DNA of 64,000 nt, from contig NZ_CP010552.1 of NCBI RefSeq assembly GCF_001293165.1, positions 1 to 64,000 on the forward strand, given 5' to 3'. A program made the translations under genes and the position numbers. The notes under the pieces were generated by a model that saw only the letters and a program-made list of their open reading frames with translations, was not told the origin of the DNA and made no database searches. Source of the DNA: Candidatus Thioglobus autotrophicus. Its GTDB lineage: Bacteria > Pseudomonadota > Gammaproteobacteria > PS1 > Pseudothioglobaceae. Of the stretch, positions 1 through 1,982 are shown piece after piece (positions within the stretch are counted from its first letter, which is position 1; every line of letters begins with the position of its first letter).

Positions 1-54
1 GTTGTTAATAACTGTATTATTTATTATTAAAGATGTTAACTTACTTACATGGGT

Positions 55-85
55 GGTAAAAAATAACTATAATAGGTAAAAAATA
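55..85 (+). promoter_or_regulatory. putative nadE promoter with direct repeats
   Basis: A consensus -10 hexamer TATAAT lies at 68-73, 35 bases before the nadE start. It is flanked by two identical 11-base direct repeats, GGTAAAAAATA, at 55-65 and 75-85, a 20-base period or about two helical turns. A looser copy sits at 98-109 against the start codon. No good -35 was seen. Because the downstream protein has its own helix-turn-helix domain, the repeats could be an autoregulatory operator; that is inference, and A-rich DNA makes chance repeats easier. Confidence 0.4.
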
Positions 86-107: not shown

Positions 108-1982
108 ATGGCTAATAAAACCAAAGACTATCTCACCAAAGTACGCAAAAAGACTGGCTTTTCAGACTATAAAATATCGCAAGAATACGGCATTAATCAA
201 TCCAATTTAAGTAAATATAAATCAGGAAAATCCGCCCTTTCTGAAACGCATGCTTGGCTGTTTGCTGATATTTTGAATATTAATCCTGCCGAGGTGGTTG
301 CTAATACTAAACTTGAGCATGCAAAAATGAAAGGTGATAAACCGAAGGCTATATTTTGGCAGGAACAACTAGAAAATCTATCAAACACCTCTGAGTCTAT
401 CAAAATCGATATTGCGCAAATTAACCCTATTGTTGGCGATTTAAACAATAACGCTCAACAAATTATTGATTTAAGTGTTAAGGCCGCCCAACAAGGTACC
501 GATCTATTGGTTTTTCCAGAATTATCATTAACAGGCTATCTGCCCGAAGATTTATTATTACGCGCTGGATTTATTCAGCAAGTTGAAGAAGTGGTTAATA
601 AGATTAAAAATGCCATCCCTGAAACTATTGCTATTATTTTTGGCGCACCTCATCAACAAGCCAGTCATTTATACAATGCTGCCTATCTTGTTCAGGCGCA
701 AGCGATTCAAATTTATCACAAACAACAGCTACCCAATTACAGTGTTTTTGATGAAAAACGCTACTTTAGCGCTGGTAGTGAGCCATTTGTTTTTACAATC
801 AAAGGCCAGCGTATTGGCTTACTCGTATGTGCTGATATCTGGAATGCTGATACAGTTAGTGAAACTGTCAAATATGGTGTGAGTAGCATTATTAGCATTA
901 ACGCCTCCCCTTTTCATATGGGCAAACACCAGAGACGACTCGAGGAAGTTAAAAAACGCGTACTTGAGAATCAAGTGGAATTTATCTATGTCAACTTAGT
1001 CGGTGGCCAAGATGAAATTGTCTTTGATGGTGGCTCATTTGCTATGAACGCCAAAGCACAAATCACTCACCAATTGCCTTTTTTTGAAGCCACAACAGCT
1101 TCATTAGCAACCCCGCAAGATCCAGTACAAGAAGAAAGTATTGAAAAAACGATTTATGATGCTCTAGTACTGGCCACTAAAGATTACATTGAAAAAAATG
1201 GTGTTTTTAACGGGGTTGTTATCGGACTATCTGGCGGCATTGATTCTGCACTTACGCTAGCTATTGCTGCAGATGCCATTGGCCCTGAAAATATTAAAGC
1301 CATTATGATGCCTTACACCTACACATCAAATATGAGCCTAGAAGATGCTAAAGCGCAAGCTAGCACTATGAATATTGATTATCAAGAAATCAGCATTCAC
1401 ACTATGGTTGAGAGTTTTAATACTCAATTAAGTGGTGTTTTTAGCGGCATGCAAGCTGATACCACTGAAGAGAACTTACAAGCTCGAGTGCGTGGAACCC
1501 TACTGATGGCTGTCTCCAACAAACTCGAAAAAATTGTTTTAACCACCGGCAACAAATCAGAAATGGCTGTGGGTTATGCTACTTTATATGGCGATATGTC
1601 AGGTGGATTTGCGCCACTTAAAGATGTGTCAAAAACTATGGTTTACCGTTTGGCAAAATACCGAAATACCCAATCCTATATCATTCCTGGTCGGGTGATT
1701 GATCGTGAGCCTTCTGCAGAGCTTGCCCCTGATCAAGTTGATCAAGACTCTTTGCCACCATACGATGAACTAGATGCGATTCTTGAGCTGTTTATCGAGC
1801 AAAGACTTTCGGTTAAAGAGATTGTTAAACAAGGCTTTAACCAGCAAATCGTAGAGCGTATTAGCCGACTGGTGCTTAATAATGAATATAAACGCAGACA
1901 AAGCGCTCCGGGGCCAAAAATTAGCCAAAATGCATTTGGTAAAGAGCGTCGCTACCCTATGACCTCAAAATTTAAACCTTAA
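108..1982 (+). CDS. nadE: glutamine-dependent NAD+ synthetase with N-terminal HTH domain
   Basis: Converts deamido-NAD to NAD using glutamine-derived ammonia and ATP, in the cytoplasm. Residues 1-90 form a Cro/C1-type helix-turn-helix of the phage-related DUF3693 kind (core ISQEYGINQSNLSKYKSGKS, then a NPAEV turn). A nitrilase-type glutaminase domain follows from about residue 100 (catalytic Glu in FPELSLTGY near 138, Cys in VCADIW near 241). The synthetase domain has the PP-loop SGGIDS at 375-380 and the usual C-terminal RRYPMTSKFKP. At 624 aa it is about 85-95 residues longer than a typical two-domain NadE. The HTH reads in frame into the enzyme with no internal stop, and the only internal Met before the enzyme domain is near residue 75. 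It overlaps convergent pabB by four bases. The enzyme call is firm; a regulatory role is inferred by analogy with NadR, which also joins an HTH to NAD enzymes. Confidence 0.93.
   Translation: MANKTKDYLTKVRKKTGFSDYKISQEYGINQSNLSKYKSGKSALSETHAWLFADILNINPAEVVANTKLEHAKMKGDKPKAIFWQEQLENLSNTSESIKIDIAQINPIVGDLNNNAQQIIDLSVKAAQQGTDLLVFPELSLTGYLPEDLLLRAGFIQQVEEVVNKIKNAIPETIAIIFGAPHQQASHLYNAAYLVQAQAIQIYHKQQLPNYSVFDEKRYFSAGSEPFVFTIKGQRIGLLVCADIWNADTVSETVKYGVSSIISINASPFHMGKHQRRLEEVKKRVLENQVEFIYVNLVGGQDEIVFDGGSFAMNAKAQITHQLPFFEATTASLATPQDPVQEESIEKTIYDALVLATKDYIEKNGVFNGVVIGLSGGIDSALTLAIAADAIGPENIKAIMMPYTYTSNMSLEDAKAQASTMNIDYQEISIHTMVESFNTQLSGVFSGMQADTTEENLQARVRGTLLMAVSNKLEKIVLTTGNKSEMAVGYATLYGDMSGGFAPLKDVSKTMVYRLAKYRNTQSYIIPGRVIDREPSAELAPDQVDQDSLPPYDELDAILELFIEQRLSVKEIVKQGFNQQIVERISRLVLNNEYKRRQSAPGPKISQNAFGKERRYPMTSKFKP

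Follow-up and report, generated by a model that had tools for sequence, protein, structure and literature searches.

Near the start of the window, by which we mean the whole analysed stretch of 64,000 nucleotides of Candidatus Thioglobus autotrophicus (contig NZ_CP010552.1, forward strand), lies a NAD synthetase (NadE) gene whose predicted protein begins with a helix-turn-helix (HTH) domain. The locus raises the question of whether the two parts form a single protein and whether such a protein could control the transcription of a gene. An original prediction, made from the sequence alone, had offered two answers: an undescribed NAD-sensing regulator, or a recently captured phage gene with no regulatory role.

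The genome carrying the gene is a single contig of 1,512,449 bases, and the parts of the protein and the elements upstream of it are collected in Table 1. A Cro/C1-like, DUF3693-type HTH in frame with a complete glutaminase-NAD synthetase had been predicted. The in-frame arrangement was confirmed as one frame of 624 aa with Pfam and NCBIfam matches, and the Cro/CI type was borne out by HTH_3 and by the fold. The DUF3693 identity was rejected, as that profile did not appear among Pfam families reported up to E 10, a search in which the HMMER filters drop most weak matches. HTH_3 was matched at residues 11–62 with 25.7 bits in the full protein and 28.9 bits with the first 100 residues alone, above the curated cut-off of 23. 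CN_hydrolase followed at residues 102–332 and NAD_synthase at 351–598 (241 bits), and the NCBIfam model PRK13981 (NAD+ synthase) covered residues 96–623 with 728 bits. E138, K205 and C241, which we take to be the catalytic residues of the glutaminase, were invariant in 60 sequences; the presence of both domains and of these active-site residues points to a glutamine-dependent NAD synthetase. The best sequence and fold matches of the enzyme part were 5kha (Acinetobacter baumannii) and 4f4h (Burkholderia thailandensis).

The isolated N-terminus (95 residues) was modelled with AlphaFold2 at a pLDDT of 94.3, with six helices over residues 1–95. It is predicted to be a helical bundle with a helix-turn-helix of the XRE/Cro-CI type, in which an HTH core (1–66) is followed by two helices reaching to about residue 94 (predicted helices at 60–75 and 78–94). 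The 50 PDB neighbours listed by Foldseek were mostly HTH proteins of the Cro/CI/XRE type, including lambda CI, 434 Cro and restriction controllers. None of these 50 reached E 0.001 (best 0.025), so the HTH fold is clear, yet a close relative is not among the solved structures. The full-length model had a pLDDT of 79 and a pTM of 0.72, with several stretches below 50, the C-terminus included; the placement of the HTH against the enzyme was therefore left without interpretation. The HTH-glutaminase-NAD synthetase fusion is real and in frame.

Table 1. Position of the nadE gene, its domains and the upstream elements in the window
Feature	Coordinates	Strand	Basis or remarks
NadE open reading frame, 624 aa	108..1982	+	Start codon ATG
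Cro/CI (XRE) HTH domain, residues 1–66	108..305	+	Pfam HTH_3, AlphaFold2, Foldseek
Recognition helix, about residues 31–39 (NQSNLSKYK)			Inside HTH domain
Linker, residues 67–95, part of two helices	306..392	+	Predicted model, lower conservation
Nitrilase-type glutaminase domain, residues 96–340	393..1127	+	Pfam CN_hydrolase; E138, K205, C241 invariant
NAD synthetase domain, residues 341–624, plus stop codon	1128..1982	+	Pfam NAD_synthase; SGGIDSA conserved
Candidate sigma-70 promoter, CTTACA / 18-nt spacer / TATAAT	44..73	+	10/12 matches
Operator-like site O2, TTACATGGGTGGTA	45..58	+	Position -63 from ATG, 2 mismatches
Second inverted repeat, ATAACTATAATAGGTAA, over -10 element	63..79	+	Pattern count and alignment

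A candidate promoter lies just ahead of codon 1. Translation from a start near residue 75–100 would detach the enzyme from the HTH, and the window gene does have an ATG at codon 74. Across the fused genes, codons 67–104 contained no ATG, GTG or TTG in 37 of 62, and in these the enzyme must be made through the HTH; 25 of the 62 had such a codon, 11 of them ATG. An internal start was rejected as a general mechanism.

In the order, which is represented in the sample by this family only, the HTH was detected in 71 of 83 genomes and in all 11 genera. All 49 order genomes with at least 90% completeness and at most 5% contamination carried it, and the 12 of 83 order genomes without an HTH match were all less than 90% complete. 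The best HTH hits lay in frames of at least 600 aa in 66 of the 71; the remaining five frames measured 462–592 aa. One draft genome (G002, loci L016/L087) has an in-frame TAA at codon 70, between the HTH and the enzyme, with HTH and promoter intact; its frame is counted within the 66. In another draft assembly (G085), whose frame is among the five shorter ones, a frameshift splits the HTH.

The protein match began at residue 1–4 in 24 of 24 family genomes; in other families (15 genomes) it began no earlier than residue 79. At six NadE loci of other families the open frame before the match extended for just 2–77 codons. With the HTH profile, the fusion was found in only four family members among 369 genomes of the class (these 15 included) and in none of the 365 other Gammaproteobacteria sampled; four class genomes outside the family had weak HTHs in frames of 87–126 aa. 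The genome_contigs collection (84,980 species) was also scanned for the peptide INQSNLSK or ALSE[TM]HAW, a requirement by which diverged forms are missed; it yielded 60 loci, 57 at 67–99% identity and three weak Flavobacterium HTHs. Record titles of the 57 named Thioglobus, Ruthia, Ruthturnera, Thiodubiliella, Pseudothioglobus, SUP05, PS1, Bathymodiolus symbionts or, more broadly, gammaproteobacteria. Within the order the fusion is ancient and spans the lineage. The architecture that the original prediction had proposed to seek in relatives is there, and its view that ordinary NadE proteins begin directly with the glutaminase domain agrees with the other families sampled. A separate HTH gene joined by sequencing error is contradicted by the recurrence of the join in dozens of assemblies.

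Interspecies identity in the window's genus was 93% for the HTH, 78% for the glutaminase and 89% for the synthetase; in genus g3 the values were 87%, 67% and 81%. Median dN/dS, taken over pairs with usable dS, was.031,.130,.108 and.043 for HTH, linker, glutaminase and synthetase in the window's genus (45 pairs) and.066,.109,.148 and.064 in g3 (105 pairs), values that are approximate because dS is near saturation in g1 and g3. In g2, with larger genomes, the HTH tied with the synthetase (identity.931 versus.937, dN/dS.072 versus.071). The HTH medians span 0.03–0.07 across the three genera, and linker conservation was below that of the HTH in g1 and g3. In sets of 14 and 50 sequences no invariant run of the domain was longer than INQSNLSKY (residues 29–37), in the recognition helix region. 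These comparisons indicate that the HTH is under purifying selection, matching or exceeding the synthetase domain in conservation; DNA-binding domain and enzyme both appear to be selected, as in a trigger enzyme.

A palindrome, TACCA-N4-TGGTA, was common to the nadE upstream regions, roughly at -99 and/or at around -64 or -51 relative to the ATG, adjoining or overlapping a TATAAT-like element. It was counted in 120 bp upstream of 67 genes, four decayed genomes being left out. With at most two mismatches it was present in 64 of 67 regions and with at most one in 45 of 67; these counts use a consensus built from the very sequences searched, which are related and share ancestry. Control windows from the same loci gave 106 of 1719 (6%) and 6 of 1719, and 3600 shuffles gave 3.7% and 0.17%, at the same two limits. 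The three regions with no palindrome at two mismatches were L026, L086 and L126. Over 71 regions the main sites were far in 35 and near in 41, both being present in 12 and mostly one alone; the two were spaced by 36 bp in 10 of the 12. The upstream neighbour of nadE varied over 22 loci (Sel1-like, a binding-protein gene, and a co-directional gene in L109, as judged by eye), which indicates that the palindromic sites belong to nadE.

In the window the site O2 (TTACATGGGTGGTA) has a degenerate left half and an intact right half and covers the -35 element and spacer of the candidate promoter; the far site O1 was not recognisable upstream of nadE in this genome. From this promoter a transcript start is predicted near base 80. 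The sigma-70 scan gave three sites against 2.1 in shuffles and is by itself not above chance; TAACTATAAT of the promoter is conserved in 41 of the 71 upstream regions. The inverted repeat ATAACTATAATAGGTAA was the sole genome-wide match with one mismatch, and 13 matches with at most two mismatches compare with 27 for a control pattern.

Further elements were seen around these promoters. A box, WATCAANNNNTTR, that resembles the IHF consensus was present ahead of nadE in 50 of the 71 regions, between -107 and -142, and in 41 of them it fell between -128 and -134; in the window genome this position would fall before base 1, at the contig end. Control windows of about 100 bp contained it in 36 of 2071 cases. 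The IHF-like box suggests a bent, multi-protein nadE promoter. In genus g4 (L019, L147 and others) the promoter region lies between the arms of an inverted repeat, GTATTTTTTAACTA ... TAGTTAAAAAATAC, and TTTTTTAACTA was present in 39 of 71 upstream regions.

Four reduced genomes (G067, G068, G071 and G075; single contigs of 1.02–1.03 Mb) provide a natural experiment in which the fused regulatory domain appears to have been lost and the enzyme kept. They belong to a genus that also contains named Ruthia records; Ruthia are symbionts of vesicomyid clams. All four retain the fused frame and the enzyme. Their median dN/dS was.90 for the HTH, a nearly neutral value, and 1.13 for the linker, whereas the two enzyme domains remained constrained at.08 and.10. 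Amino acid-changing versus silent codon differences, compared between HTH and enzyme by Fisher tests, gave p ≤ 3.7e-4 in 6 of 6 pairs of reduced genomes and p ≥.35 in all 10 pairs formed by relatives with larger genomes in that genus, the pairs not being independent and the four genomes being possibly one clade. Among 31 HTH and linker residues invariant in 56 other sequences, 3, 4, 5 and 5 were changed in the four genomes; these 17 changes at 12 positions were in no case identical between genomes. Only 1 of 157 otherwise invariant enzyme residues was changed, and it was the same one in all four.

The palindrome was likewise missing at two mismatches in all four reduced genomes, their best sites, with three mismatches, lying just one past the allowed limit, whereas 8 of 8 larger genomes of the genus had it; the promoter element TAACTATAAT was kept in 4 of 4. 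The pattern fits the loss of one function, that of the HTH on its operator, with the enzyme retained. The conserved palindrome and its decay together with the HTH would fit a domain that binds a specific promoter, and nadE is probably autoregulated by HTH-NadE.

We consider it reasonably likely that the protein is a trigger enzyme: an NadE that amidates nicotinic acid adenine dinucleotide (NaAD), binds the palindrome in its own promoter and represses itself according to NAD status. A single HTH-NadE polypeptide would both convert NaAD to NAD and bind the palindromic operator TACCA-N4-TGGTA, which would offer one main site or a pair of them, with some 36 bp between the two when the pair is present. 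A dimeric NadE would most likely set two HTHs on the palindrome, and the bound protein would block the promoter and switch off nadE transcription, repression being preferred here to activation. The signal would most likely be NAD status, sensed through the enzyme domains as NAD+ at a feedback site or as occupancy by NaAD or ATP, and with ample NAD nadE would be off. More tentatively, it is plausible that the NAD synthetase of the whole order is an NAD-responsive repressor, a trigger-enzyme class whose principal target is its own gene, reached through an array of operators, and whose regulatory half is fading in reduced clam-symbiont genomes. If this is true, product sensing and gene control are united in one protein in bacteria of the SUP05/Thioglobus type, which are marine sulfur oxidisers, both free-living and symbionts of mussels and clams.

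The operator and the selection described above would equally serve a repressor that senses nothing. Such an HTH would bind the nadE promoter and hold the enzyme at a constant level by negative feedback, and a pure self-regulator would show no convincing second target; none was established in the palindrome searches described below. We regard autorepression of this ligand-independent kind as unlikely: a separate repressor would suffice for it without any fusion, and in other bacteria the closest NadE type is feedback-inhibited by NAD+, a ready signal, according to the passages searched of PMC7196632.

It is improbable that the HTH acts mainly elsewhere, on an unrecognised regulon or in another role on DNA, with the nadE palindrome bound by it or by another protein. 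This reading draws on searches for the palindrome beyond nadE. In the window genome near-matches were not above control (8 versus 12). The exact form TACCANTANTGGTA occurred at 71 places in the 83 family genomes (42 of them) against 23 for a control pattern; about 10 of the 71 were at nadE and about 61 elsewhere, which leaves an excess that nadE by itself does not account for. Of these places, 44 were viewed without annotation, 5 at nadE and 39 elsewhere. All but two of the 39 (L163 and L168) fell within an open frame of 72 codons or more, and such a frame need not be coding; since nearly all viewed places lie inside open frames, codon usage may be the source of the exact patterns away from nadE. 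In three genomes of g3 (G041, G051 and G056; loci L161, L163 and L164) the exact pattern stands directly before a cysE-like gene, named by eye, where it overlaps an extended -10 element, TGGTATAAT; cysE is possibly a second target in g3, or the match is due to chance. An action elsewhere could also accommodate the IHF-like box near -130 in many genomes. It is opposed by the joint decay of HTH and nadE palindrome in the four reduced genomes, by the position of the cysE sites over the extended -10, and by nadA, where the 650 bases preceding the frame held no site with at most two mismatches. The winged helix of NrtR (PF21906) was not found in the window genome. A regulon beyond nadE was not established from the palindrome searches, which covered the window genome and, over the 83 family genomes, 44 of the 71 exact places.

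An N-terminal domain that serves the enzyme as a structural or oligomerisation module, without binding DNA, seems very improbable. The domain is nearly always joined to the enzyme, and the case for DNA binding comes from sequence comparison. A module of this kind is, however, hard to reconcile with an invariant run that falls on the recognition helix (residues 29–37), with the NadE proteins of other sampled families, which do without the domain, and with the four reduced genomes, where the HTH decays while the enzyme domains stay conserved, a decay not expected if the enzyme needed the HTH for its structure.

We give almost no credence to a recent phage-gene capture without a role, or to an annotation or assembly artefact: the HTH does match PHROG 4441 and 638 and has weak free-standing relatives in five Geobacillus phages and 15 Pseudomonas plasmids, but its presence in all 49 near-complete order genomes and purifying selection as strong as that on the synthetase domain contradict the second answer of the original prediction. 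None of 30 pattern matches in viral_contigs was confirmed as a relative of the HTH. The closest free relative found was a free-standing 84-aa HTH with 55% identity to the fused one (L144:3005-3259, G022:C117), from a genome of the same order; some 180 bp downstream of it comes a frame resembling NrdA (ribonucleotide reductase), named by eye. It is perhaps a paralogue or of the donor type.

The trigger-enzyme reading was set beside NadR of enterobacteria, which also has a kinase domain, and PutA of E. coli, whose DNA-binding fold differs from that of HTH-NadE. The NadR architecture, an HTH with an adenylyltransferase, is absent here, where CN_hydrolase and NAD_synthase follow the HTH. In the passages searched, NadR likewise joins an HTH to an enzyme of the NAD pathway and regulates NAD biosynthesis (PMC5343134; named as a trigger enzyme in PMC8249747), but its enzyme is a nicotinamide mononucleotide adenylyltransferase and it controls nadA-pnuC among others, whereas the enzyme here is NadE and the supported target would be its own promoter only. 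PutA resembles HTH-NadE as a catalytic enzyme with a DNA-binding domain and an operator in its own promoter region, and stands in the passages searched of PMC8249747 for trigger enzymes with few targets, their own promoter region included; it differs in enzyme and pathway, and substrate control would be a conjecture for HTH-NadE. The E. coli trigger enzymes listed in those passages are BirA, NadR, PepA, PutA and PyrH, and NadE is not in that list.

The glutaminase-synthetase part is shared with glutamine-dependent NadE of type 2 (5kha, 4f4h), but the chains of 5kha and 4f4h are without an HTH; the match spans nearly the whole of them and leaves no room for one. In the searched passages of PMC7196632, B. 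thailandensis NadE falls within a dimer cluster, enzymes of this type are regulated by NAD+ and PII and not by DNA binding, and little is said to be known of how bacteria regulate NAD synthesis. NAD genes are also under dedicated transcriptional control by NrtR and NadQ, but these are separate regulators with a related DNA-binding domain (PMC5343134, passages searched). The main text searched of a NadE family survey (PMC3376133) does not mention a helix-turn-helix, the searched part of PMC5520373 has nothing on NAD genes, and in the literature searched no NAD regulator built into the synthetase itself was found. No description of the HTH-NadE fusion appeared in the titles and abstract openings of the literature matches listed, a search mostly outside subscription papers, or in the paper passages searched, in line with the fusion having been called undescribed. 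Fusions of enzyme and regulator are known as a kind, of which HTH-NadE appears to be a member new to the searchable literature.
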